IMG/VR virus record: IMGVR_UViG_3300028384_000422
Coordinates: 19,858-83,857 of that record
Reading direction: 5' to 3' (one strand)
DNA length: 64,000 nucleotides
From: a virus
Below, one piece after another: positions 1 to 23,100 of the stretch. Below the pieces are notes generated by a model. It was not told the origin of the DNA and made no database searches. It saw nothing but the letters and a program-made list of their open reading frames with translations. Every line of letters begins with the position of its first letter. Positions within the stretch are counted from its first letter, which is position 1. The translations under genes were made by a program, and so were the position numbers.

Positions 1-3000
1 AATTAAGAAATCGACAATAGTATTCTTTTCTGAGAACTCATACAAATATCCAGCAATACCAACATTAATATTATTCGTATTGAATGGAATAACATCTTGT
101 ACTACCAAGATACCAGTTTGAGCACTCCAAGAAACTACTGTACCTCTCACACCACTAATTGCACCAGTAACAACTTCATTCGTGCTGTAATTTTGACCGT
201 TTCCTGTTGTAAGATCAACAGTAATACTTAAGGTTGCGACGTGTTGAACACCGTCACTCAATCCGCCTGCTTCAATAATAGTTGCATATCTAAATGGGAT
301 CGAAGCATCCTTGATACTGTCACCAACTTGGAACAGAGTAGTGTTTTGACCACCTTGAGTCTCTTCAATACCATACAGGGAACTAAAGATACCACCATCA
401 AGACTAATTTGGTTTTCATAGTCTGTTCCTGTATTTACCAAGTCTGCAATACCATCTCCTAAGAATGTTCCAGGATTATTAGGATCTTCATTTTCATCAT
501 CGTCTTGGAATTTTCTATCTTGTAAAGTAGAGATAGGAACAGTTAATAATGTAATGGTTGAACCAGTTTCGGTTTCGATAATATGTGGTTGATATGAACT
601 ATTAGCACTAGCAGCAACACCAGCGTCAAACTGTACAATAGCATCTTCAGTAGAAGGAATACCCGCATCGATAAAAGCAAGTTCATCAACTTCAAAAGTG
701 ACTAATAGTTCTCTTGAATTTGGATTCCAATCGTATACCTTAGCAACTTTGTTGTTTGCATTGTCAACACGACGAACAACTCGGTCACCAACGTTATACA
801 GGTAAGTAGATACTCCTTCAGGTGTATTCTGTCCTGTATCTAGAACAACTCTCTGATCATAGTTAAAGTTTACACCTCTAGTCAGACCAGTAAATCTACC
901 TTCACTCTTAGCAGTATAAGAAATAGTTTCTGCATCAACAATAATTTCACCAGAACCAGGATATGCATCAGTAGAATCTACATAAATCTCACTATCTGTA
1001 GAACTAAGTGTTTTAACAAGTCCAGTAAGATAGATCGCAGATGCATTAAGTGCCTGACGTGCTCTGGTTTTACGTTTAAGTTGAACTAACTTAGTAAAGA
1101 TAATATTGGGTGGAGAAGTATATCCTTTTCCAGGATCGATAATATTAATTCCAGTGATTTGTCCTTGGAAAATAGTTGCTTCTGCTTTTGCACCAAGACC
1201 ACCGCCACCACTAATAAGAATAAAGGGAGGTTCTTGATAGAACTCACCAGCATCTACGATATTGATATTAGTAACTTTGCCTAAGGTATCGATTTCTGCA
1301 GCACCTTGAGCACCTTGTCCACCACCACCTTCAAAGATAAGTGTCGGAGGTGTGGCGTAGTCTCTACCTGGGTTCAGCAAAGATAAACCAGTAACTGTTT
1401 GAACAGTGGGGGTTCCTGTAGCACCACTTCCCTGCCCACCAAGAATTTTTGCTTTTGCTGAACCAAAGAAGTTATCACCAGTTTTAGTCATCTTAATATA
1501 AGAGACTTGACCTGGATTATCAGTACTTAAAACAACTTCACCTGCAGCTTCGGTTGGGAATTGAGAAACTAAATCAGGGACTGTATCACCCTCAAATAGA
1601 GGAATACCATAATATTCAGGACCAATAGCATATGGATATACTGGATTGCCACTACCATCTTCAGTCATAAAATATGCATAAGTTCCGTCTGGATAATCGG
1701 GAGTAACAGCATATCTACCGTTGTACTGATCAAGAGTTCCTACGGAAGAATCGTAAATAAAATCAGTAATTAAATCACCTAACAAATATCCTTCGCAAAC
1801 ACCTCTAACACCTGCATCCTCTTCATGATATGCATAAACATATATCAGACGATCAGCATCAACAGGAACTTGGAATCTAATTTCTCGTGTTGTTGCTGCA
1901 GAGAATCCAGAAACATATGCAGCATAACTCACGGCAGAACCATCCAAATGATAGGTTACTGAATGAGATGCACCATAAACATAAGAAGTATCACCAACTA
2001 AAGCGCCATGCCAACCATCTTCTGTTGTAGAGAGTAATAAAATCTGAGAAAATAATCCGTCTACGTTACTAGAATCATCTTGATTAAAGACATACGTTTT
2101 TCCTCTCAGGAATTCAATGAATGGTAGTGTTTGACCATCAAATAAGAATTTATCATTTGCAAAAGTAACAGCATAAGTTACTGTTCCTGCAGTAACAACT
2201 TCTGGTCTGGCACCAGATAATTCTGCAGTTGTTTTCAATCTATAAGAACTAGATTCTCTACGAACAGTTCCACTATCCGTCTGACCCCAAGGACCATAGA
2301 TGGGATATCCATCAAAAGACATACCCAAAATTTTAGAGTGCCCATTTATATGTCGAGACTTATCGATTGTATTAAGATCGTTAGAATTGGGTTGATAATA
2401 ATTTTTTGTATAGTAATTATTAGCATGATCCTCTTCTTCTACAGTAGGATCGAGAACCATATATCCTTCATCGCCAGTATAACCCGACATATAGCGATGA
2501 TTTTTACAATAGTAATAGATACGATTTGATTCATCCGAATTCATAATGAATAACGGTTGATATTCGTTTTCGTAATCAGTTGACCAGTTTTCAGTAACTC
2601 CTGTGCTGTTATAGTACAGAGTTCCTCCATTCAACAGACCATCCTGAGTTGTGCTGAACTGCATTGGGTGTCCAACACCATGTTGGTTAGATGAATCAGA
2701 TTGATTCCATCTAATTAAGTAATTTCTTTGAACTCTAATATTTTCTGGTGCAAAATAATATCTACCTGGGATAAAATCACCAAACTCTTCTGCATCAGAT
2801 CCAAAATCAATATAAAAAATACCGTTAGGGAAAGTAATAGGATCATCATCAATACGAAATTGGAATCCATTAGCACCCAACAGTAAATCGTCTTCAGCAA
2901 AAGGACCGTTAACAATATTTCTAATATAAACCTTTGTTGGATTATTCTGAGAGTCTCTAACAATCTTAGCGATAAACCCATAGGCATTACCACCAACTTC

Positions 3001-3882: not shown

Positions 3883-5121
3883 TTATGCTACGTTAATTGT
3901 GCCTTGCATTTGCGCGTGGAGGGTACACTGATAATACAGCGTTGAGGGAGCATCGAGAGGAACTGTCCAATAAAGAATTGTAGAACCACTACCCGTTTGA
4001 CCTGTCGTATATGCAGTTCCACTCAATCCCTGAGTAGATTGAATTCTAAACGGGTGACCACCACCTTCAACACTATTATCAAATGCGTAAGTGAATCCTC
4101 TATAAACATACAGCGTTGGGTCACGATTGTCACCAGCAGGGAGTCCAGGTCCATTGATCAAATAGTCACTACTAGCATTTTCTACAGGAACGTTCAGTTC
4201 ATACCAAAGCATTGGACTACCACCTGGGGATCTAACCCAATCCGTGCCATTCCAATAAATGTTATCGCCCTGTGTCAGACCAGTAGTATCAGTATCAGTT
4301 AAGTTGGCAAATGTAGTTGTAAGAGTTCCACTAAAATCAACAGTTACAGTATCACCAGAAACTGTTGTTGTAATATTCGTTCCACCCGCAATAGTCAGTG
4401 TATCGGTTTGACTATTAGCAGTTGTATTTCCAGTATCACCTGCAATTGTTTGGAATACGTTAATAGAGGACACACCAGCAACGTCATCACCAGGAACCCA
4501 AGTAGATCCATTCCACTTAAGTACTTGGTTTAATGTAGGAACATTGGTAGTAGTGTCAACATCATTCAAAAGATTGATACTAGAATATTGTGTCAACAAT
4601 GTTGCTCTAGTATCACCAACACCACCCGCAGTAATATTGATATTTACATAGGGATTATCATCACCATCAACAGTGAAGTAATACCCAGGATAAGATGCTG
4701 CAGCTGGTGCTGCGGCAAGACTAGCATATTCATTCTTATATTTTACCGTCGTAGGTAAATCAATACCTTCTCCTGTAGTTCCACCAAACGTAGAAGTAAT
4801 ACCACCTGCCGCCAATGTAATATCACCAGTTCCATTTGCTGCCACAGCAATATTTCCGTTAGACGATGAAATAATTGAATTATTATTTACATCTAACGCC
4901 GCAGTCAGGTTTGTGAAATCGGAAGGTAGAAAACTAGTTCCGTTATATCTCAATACCTGACCAACAGCAGGGTTAGCAACACTTAATTGAGTGTTAGAAC
5001 CATTGCCGATGGCAGTATAAAGTTCAGTGAAATTATCATTGATCTTATCGCCGCCAGCACGGAGGGTGTCCCCCGTGTTGTCATTAGCGGCAGTACCAAG
5101 ATTAAGTGCCTGTTTAGCCAT
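3883..5121 (-). CDS. Virion structural protein with C-terminal cupredoxin-like domain
   Basis: 412 aa. The N-terminus (MAKQALNLGTAANDNTGDTL, then INDNFTELYTAIG) is a common opening of cyanophage fibre and structural proteins. The middle is Thr/Gly/Asn-rich beta sequence with repeated LRYNGTSFLPSD and LKWNGSTWVPGDD units, as in tail fibres. The last 60 residues look like a cupredoxin: H356 in GGGHPFRIQS, then LYYQCTLHAQMQG with C399, H402 and M405. The spacing (C-x2-H-x2-M) equals the amicyanin copper loop, and all four expected ligands are present. A perfect T4-type late promoter lies just upstream. Inferred to be a late tail/fibre component, possibly binding a metal at its tip. Function in infection is unknown. 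Confidence 0.85.
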   Translation of the reverse strand: MAKQALNLGTAANDNTGDTLRAGGDKINDNFTELYTAIGNGSNTQLSVANPAVGQVLRYNGTSFLPSDFTNLTAALDVNNNSIISSSNGNIAVAANGTGDITLAAGGITSTFGGTTGEGIDLPTTVKYKNEYASLAAAPAAASYPGYYFTVDGDDNPYVNINITAGGVGDTRATLLTQYSSINLLNDVDTTTNVPTLNQVLKWNGSTWVPGDDVAGVSSINVFQTIAGDTGNTTANSQTDTLTIAGGTNITTTVSGDTVTVDFSGTLTTTFANLTDTDTTGLTQGDNIYWNGTDWVRSPGGSPMLWYELNVPVENASSDYLINGPGLPAGDNRDPTLYVYRGFTYAFDNSVEGGGHPFRIQSTQGLSGTAYTTGQTGSGSTILYWTVPLDAPSTLYYQCTLHAQMQGTINVA

Positions 5122-5141: not shown

Positions 5142-5149
5142 TATTTATA
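5142..5149 (-). promoter_or_regulatory. T4-type late promoter TATAAATA
   Basis: Exact TATAAATA on the minus strand, 21-28 bp upstream of the ATG at 5121. It overlaps the stop codon of the giant gene, which would let the 412-aa gene be transcribed separately by late, gp55-type sigma-directed RNA polymerase. Confidence 0.75.
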
Positions 5150-8100
5150 GGATCTCTGGATCAACTGCTTCTTCTCCGTAATCCGCAAGATTTGGAGCGG
5201 TCCAATCGTCGGGGACAGTTGTTTCAACATCAATGCCTGGGTTCTGATATCCAGATCCAGCATTACTCATCTCAACACCCGAAACACCAACCAGCGCCTT
5301 AATATTACCATCGAATCCAGAGATAGAGTCGATTCTCACTGTAGGTCTGGAAGTATATCCAGAACCACCACCAGTAACCTGAACATCATCAATAAATCCA
5401 GAAGTGATTTGAGCCTGTGCGAGTGCATCTTGACCAAAGACAGATCCCAGATAATCGAAAGTGATCAAAGAGTTAGAAGACTCAATAACAGCAACTTCAC
5501 GATCATCGGTTTCACCCTGAATTCTGATGAAATCACCAGGTTCAACGGGAGGAACAACTTCAGCAGCATCAACGTCTGCTTCAGAACCAACGTAAGAGAA
5601 GGCAACAAATGTAGATCCGAATCTAGGAATTTCGGAGAAGATGATTCTAGAACCAACAATCTCAAAACCAATTCCAGGTTCCTGGATAACACCATTGAGA
5701 GAAACAATGATGTTATTTTCAGGTCTAATAACACTAGATTGTACACCGTCCGTAAGTGTAAGTGAGTAGAATACTTCGTTACGCTTAAGGTTAAAGGACT
5801 GACGTAAAGAGTCAAACTCAAACGAAATATCGTCAAGTTGTCTCAGTTTACCAACATAGAATCCAGTGAACGATGCACCAATATCGGGTGCTTCAGTGAA
5901 CTGAATTTGATTGGAGAATGCTGTATATGCATTGGTAGCGCCAGGAGGTTGCAAAATACCATTGATGAATACCAACAGATGACCAGCAGGATCTGGTAGA
6001 TAAGATGTTCCGTTTTCAATAGTAAGATCGAAGTTTGTCTGTGTGCCATCGAAACCTTTGGAAGAACGCTTAACGCGAGCCTTAAGATCTTCTTTAGAAG
6101 TAATAACTGACTTATAATTATCGGCAGACTTGATACCATCTCTAGTAGTAAATGTTCCTGCGATATCACTTAGATACAGACGTTTCTGTGTGCCAACCGT
6201 CTTAACGTCTTGAATAAGAGCGGCAGCGGCACCTGCGGTTACGACTCTGGTTGTGATAGAAGCATAACCAACGGGGAAGTTACCAGCAAGACCATAATCA
6301 CCAACAACATCACCATTTGTTAATTCACCCTGGAAATCGACCGCGTAAATGTAGTTATTGTCAAGGTCAACTTCGGTAATAATTGCATATACAGAAGAAA
6401 CTTGATTACCACTAACAACCTTATACAGTCTGTTACCAACGGTGAATGTATTCAGATTACTAATAATACTAATACCGAATCTCACATAACCAGTAGATGC
6501 AATTCTCTGACCAATTTGAGCATTGAAACCATCATATTTGATAACATCGATATATTGTCTGGAACTCTCTGGATATACAACAGAGTTCTTCTCGAAAGTT
6601 CCGAGTAATGTCTCTGTGTCAACTTTAAGAGTACCACCAGTATTAGAAAGAACTGCTGCCTGATTCTTAATGAATCCAGTGGGTTGTGCAGTCTCGCCAC
6701 TAGTGTAACCTTTAAACGGAATATCATTAGAGAACTCGCCTTTAAGGTCGATAATATGAATTCTATTTTCAATTGCACTAATCTGAGCAGATGTGGAGTT
6801 TTCAGCACCAACGATAATATCGGTAATTGCCCAAGGACCAGCGGTAACACGAACATCAAGATACTTATAGTTTTCATCTTCATGGAAACCATATACAACA
6901 CCAGTAACAGATGGAGCACCTTGCTTAGCAACAGTCTCATTCATCGTAAACGGTCCATCAGTGATGTCACCGTCGATACGGAAACGCTTGTAGATTTGAA
7001 CAATCTTACCGCTATTTTCGTTTAATGTTTCTACTTCTGCATATGCATTACTAGACTGACCATAGACAAAATCGGTGGTTTTAAGACCTCCTCCAAGACC
7101 AATGACTTTATCTCTTTCTCCAAATGTTTTGGTCGGCAGAGAAATAGCGTTCTGAATATCGAGAGAAGTGAAGTAAGTTCCAGTCTTGATTTGCTGTCTA
7201 ATAATATTGGTCGCATAACGAGCCAAAGCAGTAATAGAATCTGTAGTGTAATCAGATGCTGCAGTAGAACTGTAGAAACTATAGAAACCTGCATTTGTGG
7301 ACGGCGATGTAAGAGTTCCTGCGAGAGCCTGTGCAATGAATCCATCGAGCAGATCCAGAGCAAAGTTCTTGATATTAAACTCGTTATCAGAGTAGAAGAT
7401 CTTACCACTGGTTGCAGTGTAAGGATCCAAAGCAAACTTGGTGAGTTTTGCACCCCAAAGGTAAATACCTGTGCTGCCATTACCAGTCCAGGACTGAGCA
7501 CCAGAAGCACTATTAGCAATAATATTAGTTCTAAGAACAGAGAAACCAAAGGAGAACGTTGCAGTAATAAAGAGTCGATACCACCCATCACCAAGAGGAA
7601 CCGCACCATAAGCATCACCTGTAATACCACCCTGAGGAATAAAGAGTGATCCAATAGCACCAGTACTGAGATTCAGATCAAAGAAGATATTTTGTTCTGC
7701 AGTAGTTCCATCATCCAAGATAAGACCGAATCTGACAGAAGCAGAACCTGCTGCTTTAACAAAGATGGATGATGTGAATGTTTGTGTTTCAGAAACACCT
7801 ACAGCACCTGTATCAAAAGATTCATTTGTGGTGTCGAAAGTCAGTGTGCTTGAGTCAAATGTCTCAAATGCAGTCAGGTTATAATCTCTGAAAGTATCAT
7901 GAATACCACCATTATTATTTGCAGCGAAAAACTTCTCTGCAGTCAATGTTCCATCAGGAGCAGAGATCGAATTATCAGTGATCAGCAGAGAGTCAACACC
8001 ACCATTACTATTAACTTGCCAATTGACAGCAAGTGCTTCAGGGTTAGTAAACAGATTAGTACCAGAAACTTGACCACTGATGTTAGAAACCAATGTCTTA

Positions 8101-11100
8101 GCATGATCTAATGTCTGAACATTAGTAGGTTCAGAATACCAATCATAACCACTACCAACAGTAGCAACTGTTGCGGTCGCACTAGAAGTTCTACCAGTTA
8201 AGGTATCGGATGCAGACCATGCGGTTCCTGTAAATGCGCCAACAATCAACAGATTAGTTTCTTCATTCCACTCAAGAACGGTAGCATAACCGCCGCCACT
8301 AGAACGAATGACTTCACCAAGTTGGAAATTGCCAGTCAGAGAAGTGAATGTAATCTTATATGCAGTTTCCTTAACTGTAGTGTCAGTTGTAACAACATCA
8401 TGAACCATATCAGTGATAATTCTATCAATGAAAGAGTTGTATACCCATGCTCCAGAACCAAACTGAGAGTTGACCTGATTCTGAATCTCCTCCTTATAAT
8501 AATTGAGGTTATAAAGAATATTCTTAGATGCACTGCGACTAATGTCACCTCCAGGTGCAAGAATACCAATAATAATATCAATAAGATCTTCAAATCTATA
8601 TACAACTTTTTCAATATCAATTACAGTTTCGGTATCGCGATATGCAACATCATCACTGTAAATTGCCGCATAATCAGGAGAAGTAAATCCAGAGTTAAAA
8701 TCATATGCTCTGTTTCTGATTGCAAAAGGACCAATATCCTTCAATTTTTGAAGTGAATAAACAAAAGCGAGAATTTCATCTTCGATATCCTTAATTTGAA
8801 GAGATGCAGTCAGATATTTTTCAATTTCTGCAATGGTGCTATTAGTACCACCTGTCTGCAAGTCAGAAATAATACCAAGAAGAATTGCCTCTATATTTGC
8901 CTGTCTTACCAATTCATCAGCATATGTAAATGCGTTATAAGTAACACCATTCAAATCATATTGGAATTCAGTTCTAGTATAACCAGTTACTTCTTCAGCA
9001 AGATACTGTCTGTTGAAATACAAACGATCTGCAGCAACATGGAAATCATTACCTGTAGGAGCGATAACATCGTTGATAATAGTTACCAAATTATCAATTG
9101 CTGTCTTAACGTTTGCACATCCACCAGCATCCTGAGTAATACCCCAATCACCAACAATGATTGCATCGGTATTATCATAAGTCAAATCACCTGTAATCGC
9201 TTGTTTTGCATAGAATGCAAGACGCTCATGTGCATAAACAGATTGGAATACCTGTAAGCGAATATATAGAAGAATATCATTAGTACCAAGATAGAAGTTT
9301 GCTGCCTGAACAGTCTTCTCATTACCACCATTTTGAATATCATCTGCAATTCCATCCAAGATCTGACCCAAGTCAGTCTTACAACGCACAGTACCATCAG
9401 TGCTACCACCACCTTGGTTACGAGGCATATCCTGTGCAAGATCAGGATAACGCTGCAACATATCAAATGCTGCTTTATCAACGATAGCAGATCTGTTTGC
9501 TCTAATCAGGTTAGCAGCATCTCTAAAGCGATATTGTGCATCGGTGTCAATTCTATTACTATAGAATACATCAGTATTTGCATCATGATAAGAAATATCG
9601 AAAGGAGTCTCTCTAAATGCATTGACTGTTCCACCAAGGAACTTGTAAGCGGGAAGTTTCTTAGTAACAGATCCAAGATAATCAACAGCAGGATCTTGAC
9701 TTGCATTGTCTAATGTATCGCTGACAATAGACATCAAGTTGTCAACTGTATTAATAACATCTGTGCAATCATTGAGATTATATTCAGACTTAGTTATTGC
9801 ACCGCTACTTGCGGATACGAAAGTATGTGCATATTGATCATTCTGACCAGATTTACCAACATTCACAGTGAATGTATTGGTATCAGCAGCAGTAATAACA
9901 AGAACTTGTTTTGCAGCAGGATCAGACTTTCTGGGGTATGATTTCTGTGCAGTATTTCCATCTTCAGTGCAAGTGAATACAATCGACTCAGTTGCAATGA
10001 ATACGGAATCACCAGCAACCGTAATACCATTAGTGGTTGCACTTACGAAGCTATGAGTGTAGTTACCACCAGCAACAACACCATTTGTAGTTGCAGACGC
10101 AAAGGTGTGTGCTGTAGTATCCCCAGAAGTTCCAAGATCAACGGTGATTGTATTGTCTTTCTTAACAATTCCATTTGCTGTTGCACTTACAAATGTATGA
10201 ACATATTGATCAGCAGCAGAAGAAGGACCAACGTTGACAGTAAACGTATTAGTAGATACTGCAGTCGGACGTAACCATCTACCAGAGAAAGGATCGGTAG
10301 AACGAGGATAAGTCTTATTCTCAAAGTTACCATCCTTAGTGCAGGTGAATGTTAAAGAATTATCTTCAATTCTAATCTTATCACTAGTGGTGAATCCATG
10401 GTTTGCAACGGTAACTACAAGTTGACCCGATGCAGGATCATATGTTGCTGCTGTTGCAGTACTTGTTGCACCATTCTGAGTAATTTCATATGAAGTTGCT
10501 GCTGCAGTAGGAGCAGATCCGTTAGATCCAGATCCTCTGCTGAAAGTAAGTGCATTCTGAGCAATTTGAACATTCTGACCAACTTCCAGATTATTCTCAG
10601 GAAGAGTAATTACTGCAATACCTGTAGAAGGATTATATGTTGCAGTAGTCGGAGTGTAATTAACTGTAGGAGACTTACCAACATTAACTTCAAATGTATT
10701 CGTAGCAACGTTAGAAACTTCCAACCAACCCTGAGAAGCAGGATCATTTGCACGAGGATAAGTCTTCTGAGCAGTATTGCCGTCCATGGTGCAAGTGAAG
10801 GTCAGAGAGTTATCTGCCAACTTGATTCTGTCACCATTAGAAAGACCGTGACTGTTAGAAGTGATTTGAAGAACACCTGTAGTTGCAGTATATGTTGCAC
10901 CAGTTGCAGTCTTATTGCTAGGAGCAACTAAACCATGACCATTAGAGGTAAGAACCATGAGACCCGTTGCGGGATCATATGTTGCATCAGAGGGCACAAA
11001 TGTGGTTGCACTTGCGTAAGAAGACTCGGTAATAGAAGTATCAAACTTCTGAGTGAGACCATGATCACCCTGTACTTCCCAAGGTGTGTTGTTAATTACA

Positions 11101-14100
11101 TATTCAACAATCTCTTGAGTCTTTTCTAGAGTATAGAGAGTTTCTGCAATTTCACTTTCAACATGACTCAATGTGATTGGGTTGACTGTTCTATTAACAT
11201 ACAGTGCAGAAGCATCCCAGATTTTATCATTACTACCATTTCTCAAGTCATTTACAAGAGCATCGAGAATATCACGAACATCATCCTCACAATTGATTTC
11301 TCCACCAGGAACAGTGAAATAAGGATAGCGATTCTTCATGATATAAACTGCTTCATTCGCAATAAAGTCCTTATTGAGAATAATGTTATCAGCAGCATTG
11401 ATATAACGATGAGAGTTGCCAGTAAATCCAGTAACTCCAATACCTGTGGAGGACCTAGATGTTGCTAAGATTGCATCATTATTAAAGTACTCATCTGCAG
11501 TGAAGGACTCACCACCAGACCAGTCTTCAACATAAGTTTGACCTTCTTCTCCATCAAAGTGAAGAAGAAGTTTTGTAGTTGCATCACCTTGGAACATTCC
11601 TGTAGGAGCAGTGAATGCTGCGGTATAACGGTTAGTTGTAGAAACACGAAGTTCGTCAATGTAACCAGCAAATTCGTTTGCGCCTGCATAGTCACCACCG
11701 ATTCTGAGAGGTTTAGCGGCATAGTTATTAGCATCAATACCAACACCTCTCTCAACACCATCAATATACAGTTTGGTGCCTCCAGAAGCGGTAGAAGAGC
11801 GAACAACTGCAATATGATACCAAACATTGTTATTAAGCGTGGTAAGACCAGAAGTTGCAATATCTACATTATTTGAATTAAAACGAACTTGACCAGCTTC
11901 AAGATACAAACGACCAGCAACATCAGATGCCTGAGTGCGGAAGTCGAGAAGAGTCTTAGTTCCACTCAAAGAAGCAGAAAGGGGCTTCACCCAAAGTTCA
12001 ATTGTATACGCAGCAGTGCCGAATGCAAATTCACTCGAAGATGGAGTGCTAATGTATTCGTCGATAGGAACAGCACCAACGTTGACTGTAATCGTAGTAG
12101 AAGTTACTGCACTGATAGCAAGTGCTGTACCAGATGCAGGATCAGTAGAACGAGGATACGACTTATTGGAAGTATCTCCATCTTGATCGCATGTGAATGT
12201 AACAGCGTTATCTGCGATTGTGACAGTGTTGGAAGTGGTAAGAGAGTGATTACCAATCTCAAGGGTCATTGCACCCGTTGCAGGGTTATATGACGTGCCT
12301 GTAGCAGCAGTGTATGTGCCTGTAGCACCACCGCCAGCAACAATACCATCGGCAACACCACTTACAAATGTATGATCGGAAAGACCAGCAGAGAGTGCTA
12401 AACAGGAAGATCCAAACTTCTCATTGTAAGTATTAATATAAGCACCTGCTTCCCATGTCCACTGGAAGTAATCTTGACCATTACGTTGTGAGCGACCAAT
12501 CTTACCAACATAAACGGTGTTAATAGCAGAGTTATAACCGATAACTTCTGCTTTTGTATCACGGGTTCTAATAATTTGACCAGCAGCAAAGAAACCATCA
12601 CCAATCTTATCAGTGAATGTTAGTTTTCTAACAACGCCGTTCTCTATTTGGAAATCACCAACATTGTTACCGTAATCAATTTTATAGTTACGAACAATTT
12701 CATCAGCATCAAAATCTCCAGATGCATTATCATAAGGAATTACATAATTATTAATCTGTTCATTTGCAGGGAAGTTAGAGTTAAATGCGGTTGCATTATC
12801 ACCATACTGAACAACATTGACTTGAGAAGAGGAAATATCGTCGAGGATTACGTTAGGATAAGTTTGAGATGCAATTCTGTTGAACAGCAGACCGAAGAAA
12901 GAAGAACCTTCAGAAATATTGACCTGACCAATAAACTCTTGAGTTGTAGGATCTTGATATGTGGCAGTAGCAGTAACTCTTGCAACAACACCCGACTGAG
13001 CACCGATAATGACATCATTAAGTTGAATATCAAACAATCCAGGTGTAGACTGATATGTACCAGCAGTCTTACTTAAAGTAAGTGCATTAGTAACAGAAAT
13101 AGCAGTTCCATATACAGGAGCATCTTCTTGCTGAGGTGCTGCAGCGGTTCCATTTTGACCTCTAGTTACTCCAATAGTAGTAGACTCACTACCATCAGTA
13201 ACAGAGTTAACTAAGAAGATTTCGGAACCGACTTGATAGTTATCGCCAACAACGAATGTTCCTGCAGCAACAGGCGAATCTGTAGCAGCAGATACATCAA
13301 TTACTTCAATATTAGTGGTTGCAGCACCGATAGTGTAGCGCAGTTTTGCAACAGGTGTTTCTTGACCTCTTTCCAGGTTAATCTGTTCAACAATAGCAGT
13401 ATCGCCATCGAAGTTGGTAATTTTCTCACCGAAAACAAACAGACCCAGATTTGTAACTGCTGTGTTAGTTGCTAAGTTAGCATTAAATCCAGTAGTGCTA
13501 CCAGTGATCAATTCACCGATAATAAACGTGCCAGACTCCATGAAACCGTTAACTGTGTCACCAACAACACTAGTAACAATCAATCGTGCAGCAGAACTAG
13601 TACCAACTAATGTATTACCAGCTAACGGGAAAATACCACTCTGATTAGTAAATGTCAGAGAAATAGTATTGATTTGATCAATGGTAATATTTACATACTT
13701 AACACTTGCAGGAGGTGAAGGAGGTTCTTGGAAAACAATAGAATCATTTTGAATTTCAAACGATGTTCCAGGGTTCTGAACGATACCGTTAAGAACAATC
13801 ATTAACTGATTAGCGTTTGCAACAACGTTGTCTCCATCAACAGTTAGAGGGAACGCAATGCGCTCACCATCAAACAGATTAGAAATGTCATCCAATCTTT
13901 GAACAACAGAGGTTAAGATGTTCTCAGAAGAGGTCAGTCTCTTTTGACGGAACAGAACTTCTGTATTATTGAATTCGGAATATACAGGTTCAACCAGAGC
14001 AAAGTTCTGAATATTAGGAACAATTGCAGCTTGTGTAAGTTCAACCGACTTAGTTAACTCGAAGAAAGTCTCTTTATTAGGAACGAATCCATACTCATTT

Positions 14101-17100
14101 AAGTTCAGTTCACCAAAGACCTTGAAGGATGCTGGGTGAACGTTCTTGATAAGAATTTCTTTCCACTCACCAATCGAAACAGCAGACTTAACAGCATAGG
14201 AGAAGTCCTGATAATAGTAAGAGTCTTGAATCTTCTGAATAATTTCAGACGGTTTACCAACGTCATCGATAAACTGACCCGTAGTTTCTGTAATAGAACC
14301 AATTTCAAGAACACCTTTAGCAATCTTCAGATCACTAATAATACCAGAAGATTTAGAAATAACACCTGTGATTCTTTGATTTGCAGAGAAGTCGCCAGTA
14401 TAGTCAACGATCTTGAGAATTCTAGGACCAACTTGCCAACCACTATTTGTAGAAACATAACCAGTTGCTGTTGCAACATCCAGAGAATCACCTTGATATA
14501 CAAGTTCACCCTCAAGGAATGTAGAAGTTCCAACATTTGCCGTTGCAGAACCACCGAAAGATTCAGTCAAGATAGACTGACGACCATTACCTGCATTACT
14601 GAATGTAAGTGCGTCACCCAGTTCTGCGTTAGCAGGAGTGATAGCAAGTTTTAACTGATCATCTTCCAAAGAGTTTGCTGTACCAGCAATTGCATAATAA
14701 GTGGTAGATCCGTTTAAACGACCAGTTGCGCCAGATGACAGAGGGAATTCTGCACCATCACCAGTATCAGTTACCGAAACCGTAACTTCAGCACCATTTG
14801 TAATACCATGAGGGAAGGAGAATTGAAGCAGACCTAAGTCAAGGTTGATAACATAGTTGAAAGAAGATTTCAGACTTACAGTAGGTGTAGAAGAATAACC
14901 AGCACCAGGATCTTTGATCAAAATTTGATCCAAACGACCATTCTTAATTGTTGCCTCAGCAACAGCACCAGAACCGCCACCACCAGAGATAATAACAGCA
15001 GGTGCCTGAGAATAACCCGAACCAGGATCATTGACAGTAATACTAGTAAGAATGCTAGTAGATGTTAACTGTGCGTTGATTGGGAAAGTAATTTCAGGAC
15101 GCAACGTATAGTCATGAGGATAATCATAACCAAAGTTATTGTTCTTAAGTTTCTTGATCTTACCGACCTTATCACCCTTAGTGAAAACAGATGCTCCAGA
15201 ACCGAAGGAGGGAATAACAACCTCAACTTCAGCACCAGAACCAGTCAAACCAGCACCAAGAATACCATCAACAGAATCAATATCAATAGTTGCAGTGGTA
15301 TAACCTTTACCAGGAGAGGTAACCGTAACTGCTTGAATCTGTCCAGGGATTGCATCACCTTCAGAGTCAGTGCCATCAGCAACAGTAATTTCTACTAATC
15401 CACCTTCACCATCACCTGCAATAGGAACACCTCGATATTGACCAACTGCATATTCAGTTCCAGGTTCATTAATTTGAACTCTCTCAATTTGTCTTGTAGA
15501 TTGAATATCAGAAACAATAGGTAATCTCTGATAGAATCCACCAGCGTTAACAACTCTAATGTCACTGATAGAACCAACTGCTTTCTTAGAACTAGTGCTA
15601 TAAGACGCTTGACTGATATCTGCAGGACCTTCAGGCTCATTCAGCAGAGGGAATTTAATAATGTCAGCACCACGAGTAATTGTTGCACCAGCAACACCAC
15701 TGAGTTGGAATGTTCCGACATATGGAGAATCTACAACGTCAAGATAACTACCAGGAATGACAGGAGAATCATCACCCGTTCTAGAAGGATCAAAGTAGTA
15801 CGAGATATTGGTTACAATGTTTCTATCAACCTTGAGTTTAACAGTAGGAGTAGGTTGACCTTCACCAGTAAGACCAGGAGTTCCAACACGTTCAATAGAG
15901 TTGAATGAATATTCCAACTTATACAGGTTATCCTTAGAGAAGGATAAGTTGCCACCTTCAAGAGAGGAATGACTAAGGTCAAACAGATATTGATGACCAT
16001 AATACATCTTCAAGGTAGGAGACTTCGAGAAGATACTAACACCCGATGCTGTTGTAGCAGGATCAGAAACTGCTGCAGCAGTTAACTTGTAAACAAATTC
16101 CAGAGGACTGATTACTTGATTGACTGCGAACGCACCATCATATTCATCATATGTAACTCCACCAACATCTTGAGACGGGTTACCATCAACAAAGATAACA
16201 TCACCAGCATCAAGATAATGATTAGTATCGGTAATTACATAAACTTCATCGCCATTCTCACGAGCAGTGACTTGAAGAATCTTAGTAAGATTTGTAATTA
16301 CAGTAACTTTGGTAACACCAGTCAGACCTGTAATTTGAGCGGTGCTATATGCAGAATTGAATGAAATATTTCCAGAAGCAATCTGAACAACAGATCCAAC
16401 AATATACGGGGAAGATCCGCTAACTTCGTCAATTCTAATGGAATAATCATCATCAGAATATGGTTTGAATACTGCATATTCATCAAGATTATTAGTTCCA
16501 CCTATATCAGTAGGAGCGTTAAAGTCTGCCAGATCAAGATCAAAGGTTCCAGGAGTAGTATTAATTACTTGTGCAAAAGAGTAACTATCAATCTGATTAA
16601 TATCATTAGGAATTACACCAGTAATACCATAAGTAGACTGTTCATTAAACTGCTCTGTAGAGAGACGACCCGTGTTCAGATCGTTAGACCAAGTGTTATT
16701 ATTAACCGCAACAAAAACATGATTGGTTGTAGTATCAACCTTAGTAATATATCCGCTGTTAATAAATGCTCCTGATGTATTCCTCAGTACTAACTTAGAA
16801 CCAACGGTAAATCTAAATGACTGATTAATAGTCAGTTTTTGAATATTATCAATCTTAAGAGTATTTGTTACTTTGAAGAAATATCTATCTTTAACAACTG
16901 CAGTTACCTGCAACTTCTGAGAACCAGGAGAAGGAACAGTTGCAGTTCTGGAACTCCATATATCCTGAGTATAAGTCAATGTCTCAGAATCTTGAGTCAT
17001 TGTAGTATCCGCATCATCAAAGTCAAGTGATTGTAGACCAGCATCACCTAAAGCATACTCGGAAGTAGAAATAGTAAGAGTGGATCCTGTAACAGGAGTT

Positions 17101-20100
17101 ACTGCAGTTCTTGTAAATGCAATACCAGTATTTGTCTGAGTTGCCTTATCACCAAGTCTTACAGCATCAGCATCCTTGTCAACTTTAAGTCCAAAACCAG
17201 CGTAATCAATGTAATCGTAACGACCCAGATAATCAGGGAACCAAGTAAGATCGGTGTATGTGTAGGAAAGTCCAATTGCACCATTAGTTGGAAGAACCGA
17301 GATATCACTAGGTGTAGTAGGAGTAACGGCACGATTTCTCAGACGGAAGTTATCAGTAATATACTGACCTTGCTCATTTACACGGAATGTGCCAGTAGTG
17401 CCATCTTTACCAGAGATTTGACCAACTAAGAAATCTTTGTTTGCAAAATTAGTGTCGGAAAGAGTTGCGGTAATTACTGAAATGCCATTGACATATACAG
17501 TGAATGTATTACCATCTCTCTTAAGACCAATAAACTGCCAAGTGTCATCAGCAAACATCGTAGTTTGCGTAGATTGTACAGCACTTCCTAAGTTGATGGT
17601 TGTAGTGTTATTAGTAACAACTAAGGAGAGTTTACCATCAGCAACGTTGTAATACAACCAAAGACCACCTGTAGCATCGGTGGCATCACCAATAGAGAAT
17701 AAGGTATGTTGAGTGATACCAGAAACAGCAGTGAAATTGGTATCTTTAAAGATCTGCATTTCGGCAGTCCAGTTACCATTCAACTTAGTTCCTAATTGAG
17801 CGCCAGTAACTTTTAGGTTGCCTCTTGTCCAAGTGCTTTGACCAGTCTGATAACCATAGATCTTTGCATATCCACCATCGTAATCCAAAGAACCGCTAGT
17901 AGATTCGGTAGTCAGTGTGTAATGTCCAGTGGTATCAGTAGTTGTAGATCCCGTATTAAAGGGGAAAATAAACTCGTTACGGTTCCAAGAGATCTGACCG
18001 AAGACATGAACGTCTGCAGAGTTGTCTACATCTAAAGAGTGTGCGGTAATACCTTCAATATTTGCTTCGTCGAAGTTATTGGTAGTATGATTTTTAACAA
18101 TACCATTATAACCAATCTTAACTGTATCTACAGTCTTCAACCCAGTTGTATTATCAGTACGATTAAATGCAACGTTCAGATCACCGAAAATGTCGATTTC
18201 TGAATTGCCAACCATATCAACTTCTCTACCAGGAGCAACATAACGATAGTTCCAGATAAGAGCACCGTCAGTATTAATCTTACCAACCCAGAAACTATCT
18301 TTGTTGGTATCATCGGACTTAAGACGACAATTACCTAAAACATAAATTTCATTAAATTCGTCAATACACAGACTAGTATTCAAAGTTGAATATAAGGTGT
18401 TTGTATACTTCTTAATCCAAACACTGGTAATTGCAGATGCTCCGATGGACGCTTTACCAACTGCCACATCGACATCGCCAGCAACGTTAGTGTCAGCAAC
18501 TTCTAGTGAATAATAGATGTCTTCTCCATTGACAATGATGTCAGTGATCTTTTCAGATTTATTTGACGATGCAAACTTTCTCTTAACTGAGAAGTTACCG
18601 CTAGTATCAATAGATGCGATGAATGCATCTTCAGGACTTACCGAGTTTGTATTAGTAAAACCACCAATTAAGAAACGAGTATCAGAATACTTAACAAGAG
18701 ATGTAACAACATCACCACGGGTGCTACCAGAAATACCAGCATAACCTTTCTGAAAAGTCAGTGTTGCACTTAAACCATTATCTGCTTGAGTATACTTAGC
18801 AAGAATAATGTCTGGGTTATAATCAGCAAGAATGCTGCTATTTGGTCTATTTTGTCCAACTACCCAAACCGCGTTACCATCAACAACCAGTTTTGAAAAT
18901 TCTGCTTCCTGTTGTCCAGTACCAAGTTCTAATGTTTTCTGCCATTCTTTAACACCTGTAGCAGAGAGTTTAGCAACAAATGCAACTACATTATCACTAG
19001 CATCTTTTGTCTTGCCACAAATGAATACCTCTTTATTGTCATTGACAAAGGTATCGTTGACCTTTACATAGTCATTGTTATTGATAAAGGAGACATAATA
19101 ATCTGCCTTTTTGAATACCTGTGGGTGAGAAAGAATGACTCTAGGATTACTTGTATATCCAGAACCAGAATTAAGGATATTGACAGTATCGATAGATCCA
19201 ACAGAAGATACGACTGCCTGTAGTCTAGCATCAGCACCACTGTCACTATCAATAACAATTGTGGGAGGAATATCTTCATTATAACCAGAACCAGTCTGAT
19301 TAATAATAATCTCTTCGATACCCGTATATTGACGAACAATAAACTGCTTGTTAGTGTTGTCCATAACAGGACTGTAGTCAACAAATACAGTATCACCAAC
19401 AACCAGGTTATGAGGTTCTTCAGTTGTTAAGACACCATAATTTTGTCCACTAATACTTTCAAAGGTATAAGCTTCTACAGTTTCTCCCTTAATTCTAGAA
19501 ACACGAGCGGAAACACCAGATCCACCAGTATTAGTATTATCAAAGATAAGTCTATCATCGACCTGATAGGAAAGTCCTGGGTTTTCAATTGTAAATCCAG
19601 TTACAGAAGCATCCTCAAACTTAGTAGTCGTTTCAACTTCAATATCAACCTTAGAATCCAGTTTTACCTTCGGGAAATAATCATAAAGTTGCAAAGGAGA
19701 TTCTTCAAAGACCTGATCGGGATCATCAAGTTCTGCCTGTTCAATAACACCACTTCTATCTTCGTCTTCTACTTCAAACAGAAGAATATCACCGTTTTCT
19801 AATGTCAATGCATTTGTAGATGCATTAGGAGCACGCTCAACATCGATGTCAACATTCTCATATGGATCGCGATAACGAACAACACCAGTTGGAATATTCT
19901 GTTGAACTGCATCGGTGCTCAAGTTCCACTTATCAACAACGGAGTTGAAGCTAGGACCAAGAACATATGGGAATACAGGATTACCTGCTTCTGCAGCATC
20001 AATAGTGACAAAATAGCAATATCTACCTTCGGGGAAATCAGGTGTTTTGCAGAAACGACCGTTATATTGGTCTAGATCACCTGAGTTAAAAACATATTGA

Positions 20101-23100
20101 TAGTCTTCAACGAAATTACCTGCCGCTTCTTCAGAAAGTAAGGGACCAGCAGTTCTTACGGGATTTGGATTAGTATCAACGTTGTATACCAATTCGGTCT
20201 TCAGACTATAAGAAGTACGCATTCTGGTAATCGAAGATCCTTGATCCGTAGGATCAGTATATGCATAAGGACCGTAAATCGGGTTACCATCAAACGCCCA
20301 ACCAATAATAGGAGAGTGAACAAGTTGATCTTCTTGCTCAAGAATACTACCAGCAGTGTCTTGGAAAAGATTATCACCGAGAATATATCTCAGTCTTTGT
20401 GGGTTGGAGATGTGTGCATATTCTCCACCATACTGATTATTAAATCCTTCAGCAACAAATCCTTTTGCACTATCAATTGTGGAAGTTTCTTGTAAGTTAT
20501 ATGTCCACTTGAATACTTGTGCTGAGAATTGAGCACCTTGACCAATAGAATTCAAGTTGATAATAGTTTGTCCTTGAGTATATCCAATACCCTTGTTAAC
20601 AATAGTGATACCAGTAACTCTACCAGCATTTTCACCATCAGTATCAATAGTCGCTCTTGCTACAGCACCGAAACCATCACCTTGAATTTGAATCTCTGGT
20701 GCAGTAGTGTATCCAGATCCAGCAGAAATAATAGCAATAGAAATAATTCTACCATTATTAACAATTGGTTGAGCAACTGCACCAGAACCAGAACTCAGTG
20801 TAACAGTAGGAGTTGAAGTATAAGAAACACCACCATTAACGATATTGACAGATTTGATAGGACCTCTAACAAATGCAGTACCAGTAGCACCTGTTCCGCC
20901 TCCACCAACAATAGTAATAGAAGGTTGAGATGTATATCCAGTTCCACCCTCATTGATAAGAATTCTAGAAACTACACCCTTAGTGATAATTGCCGTTGCA
21001 GACGCACCAGAACCGCCTCCACCAACGATAGAGACGAGAGGGGAGGATGTATACCCAGAACCACCAGAATCAACTGTAATCTCGCTAATAGCACCATCAA
21101 CAACTACATCTGCAGTAGCACCAGTTCCTCCACCACCATCAATGGTGATAACAGGGGGATTTGCTGCATCATATCCCTCACCTTTGTTGGGGATATCAAT
21201 TGAAGTAACTGCACCAAAAGTTTTTGTGATAGTAGACTTATAGGACCATACTGAGACACCATTCACCCATGTTCCAATAGGACCAGAAGCAATTGTATTC
21301 TTAGTCGAAATAGTTACAGGTGATGTGGGGAATCTGTTCAGTTTACGCTGATTACCAGGTAAAAGAGCAGATCCAGGGAAAGGACCAATATTATAGTTCG
21401 GAATACCCGTAGATGCAACGTAAACGTAGTTGTCATTAAAGAAAGTATTCTGAATGTTAGTGGTATAAGGTCCAATAGCATTAAGAACAATCTGACTATC
21501 AGATTTACCCTTGTTCAAGTCAATAGAAACAAGAATATTACCTTGAGGAACTGTAGTTGCAGGTTGAGGTAATTGATATTGGAAAACCGTAGAACTATCT
21601 CTGGAAGTTACCAAAAACGTTCCGTTATAGATGATTGGGTTTGCACCATAGACCGTAACTTGGTCTCCAACCAAAAGACCGTGAGGATTAGAGCAAGTAA
21701 CAGTTGCAGACTGGTTATTTACACCACCAAAAGTGATACCAGATACTTCAACCAGTTTTTTAACGTTATACAACCAAGTTGTTAACTGAGAAGACGTTCC
21801 TGTGCCACCCAGTTTAGAAACTGACAGTTTATCACCAGGAAGATAATAAGAACCTGTGTCAGTAAGAGTGGTTTGTTGAGCATCAACAATACCAACAATA
21901 TTCATTACAACTTCTTGAGCAGTGCCCTTGTTTAAGAAGATTGTAAAGTTGGAAGAAACCTCTGTAGCAGAATCCCAGTCTTCTACAGTTCCATTTACAG
22001 AACGGGTACACTCAATGAACTGGTTTAGTGACTTTTCTTTGTATTGAATGACTTCTCTGCCAAGTCCACTACCAATTACAAATTCTCCGTTTCTTTCTGG
22101 CCAACCAATCGTAGAGTCAACGGTGATAATACTATCAGTAGTGTTGAGAGGTTCTGCGAGACGAGTTTTATAAGGAACAGTAAAAGTTCCTGTAATAGTT
22201 TCTTCAGAAAGAACAAGTTCAAAGATTTCTACATCAGAAGTTTTAATCGAAATATAGTTTTCAACCAAAGCACTTGCTGCTTGGACATTAGAGTCTGCAA
22301 TATCCGCTTCTTGAGTAATCAGAGCGTCTCTGATGTCTACAGGATTACCACTAACCAAAGTGGCACGAAGAATTGTGTCAACAGACCAAGTTGCAGCAGA
22401 GGGTTTGATGATTTGGTCTTTCGGATACGAAATAGAGACCGTTTCACCATAAAGTAATTTGAAAAGATATGCAATACTAAACGAAGTTCCTTTTGCTGAA
22501 TAAAAATCTTTAATTGACTTGATTGCGTTACGAACGTCAATCTTTTTATAGTCTAATTGAGGAACATCGGGTAAAAACTGCTCAGTATACTTGTCAAGCA
22601 GTCTTTTAATGAATAAAGCATCCAAACACTTGACTTCTGCGTCTACTGCAGCAGATGCCGCTAACGTATTATTAGAAAACTTGGCATTACCATCTTCGGT
22701 ATAAGAGGTTATGCCACTTGCAGATCTGGCACAACCATTAAACGCCGCTTTATCATATTCTGTTCCTGATTTTTGAACTTCAAAACCAGTTACCTCATTA
22801 AGACCGATTTCAACTGATGCCTGAGCAGAAGGAGGGTCCTGAATGACAATCTTTGGGGGTTGTGTGACGCTGTAACCAGTACCAAACTCAGTTACGTTAA
22901 TATCAGTAATCTGACCATTAAAGATCGATGCTACTGCCTTAGCGCCAGTTCCTCCAGAGTAGTTACCTTGAGCATCAGTGCGAGTGTCAACGATATAAAC
23001 CGAAGGGATCTCATCATATCCACTACCACCATTAAGAAGTTCGATACCGATAACACGACCATTACCATCGACTCTAGTTTCAAGAACTTGAGCACCAACT

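Follow-up and report, generated by a model that had tools for sequence, protein, structure and literature searches.

The window is a 64,000-nucleotide stretch of an 83.9-kb virus record. Over its first 24 kb it shares 94.5% identity with the T4-like cyanomyophage Syn19, a Synechococcus phage. The features considered here belong to two adjacent genes and are as follows.

3883..5121, minus strand: gp9-like baseplate wedge/tail-fibre connector, 412 aa (PHROG 677, E=1e-192; 97.6% identity to Syn19 gp9)
4834..5115, minus strand: N-terminal T4 gp9/gp10-like attachment domain, aa 3-96 (PF07880, T4_gp9_10_N; 36.3 bits against a cut-off of 25)
3886..4212, minus strand: predicted C-terminal cupredoxin-fold domain, aa 304-412 (~110 residues), from AlphaFold2, Foldseek/VIA and a profile against amicyanin
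4054..4056, minus strand: His356, predicted N-terminal copper ligand (in GHPF), invariant and aligned to rusticyanin H85
3925..3927, minus strand: Cys399, predicted thiolate copper ligand, invariant and aligned to rusticyanin C138
3916..3918, minus strand: His402, predicted copper ligand, invariant and aligned to rusticyanin H143
3907..3909, minus strand: Met405, predicted axial copper ligand, invariant and aligned to rusticyanin M148
2482..2703, minus strand: second intact cupredoxin-like H/C/H/M segment, aa 390-463 of the next protein (H401, C455, H458, M461; HMM E=3.8e-15)
1780..2205, minus strand: predicted third cupredoxin-fold domain, about aa 556-697 of the same protein, lacking the ligand set (AlphaFold2 segment, VIA Z 8.9 to rusticyanin)

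The 412-aa open reading frame is assigned by its sequence as gp9 of a cyanomyophage close to Syn19. It carries the T4_gp9_10_N domain above cut-off and falls in a PHROG connector family, the two marks of a T4-like gp9 connector; PHROG 677 is annotated as 'baseplate wedge tail fiber protein connector'. The resemblance to the T4 gp9 wedge/long tail fibre connector extends to the N-terminal domain, the annotation, and the gene neighbourhood. In a PDB sequence search, T4 gp10 and gp9 are matched by the N-terminal part of the phage protein only. The gene order in Syn19, giant protein, gp9, T4-GC399, gp8, is a baseplate neighbourhood. The window also has a 6483-aa open reading frame (5145-24596, minus strand), a homologue of Syn19_088 in cluster T4-GC969, which has been described as a virion structural protein (PMC3037559). 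Around 15960-16100 this frame matches half of the cupredoxin domain in degenerate form, and it has a YHYH-like segment. Sequence searches of T4, KVP40, HTVC008M, and P-SSP7 found no match to the C-terminal cupredoxin domain of gp9.

The fold of this C-terminal domain was predicted with AlphaFold2 from a 42-row alignment, giving a pLDDT of 93.7 and a pTM of 0.86. When the model is compared with the PDB using Foldseek, all 24 matches at E<=0.001 are cupredoxins, copper nitrite reductases (CuNIR), or multicopper oxidases, with rusticyanin, nitrite reductase, and amicyanin at the top. VIA-align returns a Z of 9.6 against both CuNIR and rusticyanin, with 96-98 residues aligned. A profile search of the PDB with the gp9 domain recovers amicyanin (E=2.6e-5) as well as CuNIR, plastocyanin, and rusticyanin. 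In cupredoxins, the type-1 ligands lie before a strand, at a strand end, in a loop, and before the last strand. In the model, H356 (model residue 58) sits just before strand 60-63, C399 (101) ends strand 96-101, H402 (104) is in a loop, and M405 (107) immediately precedes the last strand. The predicted domain is therefore a Greek-key beta-sandwich like that of solved cupredoxins, with the His...Cys-x(n)-His-x(n)-Met order in the right loops. The first-pass annotation, which had proposed a cupredoxin copper site here, named two observations that would count against it, a fold unlike a Greek-key cupredoxin and ligands lying far apart. The predicted fold agrees with the cupredoxins by AlphaFold2, Foldseek, and VIA; the ligand positions also agree, a judgment that is based on alignment and strand positions.

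Alignment to individual cupredoxins yields one discrepancy. In a plain HMM alignment to amicyanin, the first His of the phage protein falls two residues early, which counts against the assignment. An hhalign comparison with rusticyanin (E=4.9e-6; sequence identical to PDB 1cur) places H356/C399/H402/M405 on H85/C138/H143/M148 and resolves this point. The domain also lies outside the curated models. The first-pass annotation had suggested a comparison with PF00127 (copper-bind), but gp9 is matched neither by this model nor by any other copper family model in Pfam or NCBIfam, TIGR02657 (amicyanin) included, and no PF00127 match occurs anywhere in the source record. At E<=0.1, PF00127 matches 11 of 42 homologues (best 1.2e-4) and TIGR02657 matches 16 of 42 (best 2.6e-6), and the rusticyanin family model is also scored by some homologues. 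These data identify the gp9 domain, as modeled and aligned, as a copper-site domain of the cupredoxin type that is not included in the curated copper families.

Among known systems, the closest structural relative is rusticyanin from Acidithiobacillus ferrooxidans, which leads the Foldseek matches (E 5e-6) and gives a VIA Z of 9.6. The two proteins resemble each other around the first His (GHSFDI in rusticyanin, GHPFRI in the phage), and their four ligands align. However, rusticyanin has a longer ligand loop (C-x4-H-x4-M) and an extra N-terminal part, and it is a soluble periplasmic electron carrier. Amicyanin from Paracoccus, which led the first profile search of the PDB, shares CT-x-H-x2-M-x-G and a C-x2-H-x2-M loop of the same length, as the first-pass annotation had pointed out for ligand order and spacing. 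It differs in having Asn after the first His, as is usual in plastocyanin, whereas Pro follows H356 in gp9, which also counts against the assignment; moreover, amicyanin is the redox partner of methylamine dehydrogenase and is not borne on a virion. The cupredoxin domain of the three-domain copper nitrite reductase from Hyphomicrobium also gives a VIA Z of 9.6, over 96 aligned residues, but it is the tethered electron-transfer domain of an enzyme. Cyanophages also encode the plastocyanin PetE as an auxiliary metabolic gene. PetE is likewise a cupredoxin with type-1 ligands, yet it is a separate photosynthetic gene, whereas in gp9 the domain is part of a baseplate protein. This fusion, together with the lack of a PF00127 match in the record, rules out an ordinary plastocyanin gene.

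The ligand set predicted by the first-pass annotation, H356, C399, H402, and M405 of the 412-aa protein, is intact and conserved in homologues. Its placement at the tip of a virion protein also holds, in that the domain forms the C-terminal end of the predicted connector. The stretch that it gave, 3883-4140, covers approximately residues 328-412, and the whole domain begins near residue 304 (nt 4212). C399 is the sole Cys in gp9, H356 and H402 are its only His residues, and Met occurs at 1, 304, and 405. The pattern H-x(20-80)-C-x2-H-x2-M did not arise in any of 200,000 composition-preserving shuffles of gp9. A six-frame search of the window turns up three copies of C-x2-H-x(2-4)-M: one in gp9, one in the baseplate protein next to it, and one in a frame of 66 codons. 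A chance motif is ruled out by the shuffles, by this rarity, and by invariance among homologues.

That invariance was found at several depths of sampling. Fifteen divergent homologues share seven invariant columns, four of which are the H/C/H/M set, and in 42 diverse homologues the only six invariant columns are H, C, H, M, a P, and a Y. Among 199 distinct domains spanning all four sites, taken from loci fetched in viral and genome collections, 198 keep H/C/H/M, and the exception, a domain of L160, has lost all four together. The site is intact in every one of 54 distinct gp9 sequences, 52 of which have a single Cys. The conservation of the Cys is partly built in, because the fetching patterns contained YQC; six patterns were used in the gp9 search, one of which also included His and Met. 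The second site, encoded by the adjacent gene, was by-catch outside the fetching patterns, and all of its four ligands are retained throughout 25 homologues. The exceptional domain, at aa 403-483 of L160:3188-5275, is cupredoxin-like but has its four ligands replaced (E/S/S/A); this natural copper-less twin shares its chain with an intact domain. Some marine phage proteins (L178, L140, L129, and L175) have two intact copper-site domains per chain.

The protein encoded by the next gene belongs to PHROG 708, a baseplate wedge subunit family. An AlphaFold2 model of 401 aa of this protein has a mean pLDDT of only 66, so the fold assigned to its second H/C/H/M segment rests on sequence. The third domain is still recognized in this model, with a local pLDDT mostly of 53-92. 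Because this domain keeps the fold without the ligands, the fold alone does not demand the four residues, and their invariance elsewhere thus points to function. The same protein has a YHYH domain (Pfam 4e-16), a predicted Zn-binding hydrolase (PMC7824862). This domain (window 1657-2205, minus strand) is split into two Pfam stretches, with the metal-less cupredoxin-fold domain near or between them; the latter apparently is an insertion in the YHYH domain.

A tblastn search with the gp9 domain gives matches in 330 phage records, almost all of them cyanophages. Proteins with a match include gp9 and, in P-SSM2, the putative proximal tail fibre; a 438-aa frame of the podovirus P-SCSP2 also matches. 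A 168-aa protein of S-SCSM2R that is annotated as PetE (L082:3779-4285) is a virion-type cupredoxin domain beside fibre-like genes and, judging from this sequence, is probably misannotated as a photosynthetic plastocyanin. Some of the bacterial matches (L091, L096, and L097) have an apparent signal peptide, so the module is common to phages and secreted bacterial cupredoxin-like proteins; other genome matches, such as L089, are phage DNA. Weaker fold matches in BFVD (A0A481Z6J5 and A0A481YWX9) are 'Beta-sandwich proteins' of pitho- and marseilleviruses.

The four residues could serve purposes other than copper binding. If the cupredoxin fold were purely a structural or binding module, H/C/H/M would be a hydrogen-bonded core or an incidental metal binder. 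Viral relatives with the same fold and no ligands do exist, namely the third domain of the adjacent protein and a degenerate match in S-PM2, and the virion context is itself structural. However, these ligand-free relatives show that H/C/H/M is dispensable for the fold, and nevertheless the set is invariant in the gp9 domain, down to the Met, a weak axial ligand. In addition, where ligand loss is seen in a full-length domain, it strikes all four together, which fits the expectation for a metal site. We regard a purely structural or binding use of the fold as unlikely. A site for another metal, such as Zn or Fe, is less probable by a wide step: His/Cys sets can bind Zn, and the neighboring YHYH domain is predicted to do so (PMC7824862), but the site matches type-1 copper proteins in the order of its ligands, the length of its loop, and its axial Met, and the best sequence and fold matches of the gp9 domain are copper proteins. 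Display of copper for recognition by a host copper-uptake component is similarly improbable. This arrangement would parallel the proposal, made for iron-binding HxH motifs, of metal-binding tail fibres in T4 and marine phages (PMC11705849), and the domain does recur in proteins whose annotation places them in the fibre or baseplate. Nevertheless, evidence for a copper receptor is absent, and type-1 copper sits too deep in its protein to be easily presented to one.

The site could also be redox active, sensing or exchanging electrons at the surface of the photosynthetic host; a switch that governs light-dependent adsorption would be one example. A full type-1 set with an invariant Met is typical of electron carriers. 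Adsorption of S-PM2 is light-dependent, but S-PM2 lacks an intact site and has only the degenerate match; conversely, P-SSM2 adsorbs in the dark and yet C-x2-H-x2-M is present in its four matches. Dark adsorption fails in P-HM2 (PMC7112961), whose four domain matches include at least three with H/C/H/M, whereas P-SSP7 has no domain match. The phenotypes of P-HM2 and P-SSP7 are taken from PMC7112961, and those of P-SSM2 and S-PM2 are general background. Among these four phages, the presence of the domain does not correlate with light-dependent adsorption, which was set aside as the domain's function for this reason. Furthermore, no electron partner is known. Electron exchange or sensing at the host surface is accordingly doubtful as an explanation of the site. 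Of the roles that the first-pass annotation raised, sensing or exchange of electrons or metal is possible but secondary for gp9, and it seems more doubtful still that blue-copper centers in the tail fibres and baseplates of marine cyanophages act as an electron-transfer or redox switch at host contact, with the virion as an electron carrier.

Our analysis favors a copper-binding cupredoxin head on the connector. The C-terminal ~110 residues of gp9 are quite likely a copper-binding cupredoxin with a complete type-1 (blue) site, as judged from the predicted fold and the aligned ligands, and the models and alignments suggest that many cyanophage particles carry copper. Each gp9 chain would hold one copper. 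If gp9, like its T4 counterpart, is present as six trimers, a virion would have about 18 coppers, in addition to those of the adjacent baseplate protein. The cyanobacterial cytosol holds copper tightly, and the loading of a phage site therefore needs an explanation; copper may be taken up outside the host cytosol, from sea water after lysis or from the host periplasm. Once bound, it would stabilize the ligand loop in gp9, a protein without disulfides. The domain's role is probably structural or adhesive. The chances are roughly even that it is a compact, metal-locked head for holding or docking the tail fibre or for contact with the cell surface.

In the literature searched, no paper was found that mentions a cupredoxin as part of a cyanophage virion, and the virion baseplate is an unusual place for a cupredoxin-type copper-site domain. 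If copper is bound, cyanophage particles would be copper carriers, the assembled phage would contain a redox-capable center, and copper may be needed for the virion to be stable or infectious. The single Cys of gp9 provides a concrete, mutable handle on a baseplate protein of these ecologically important viruses.
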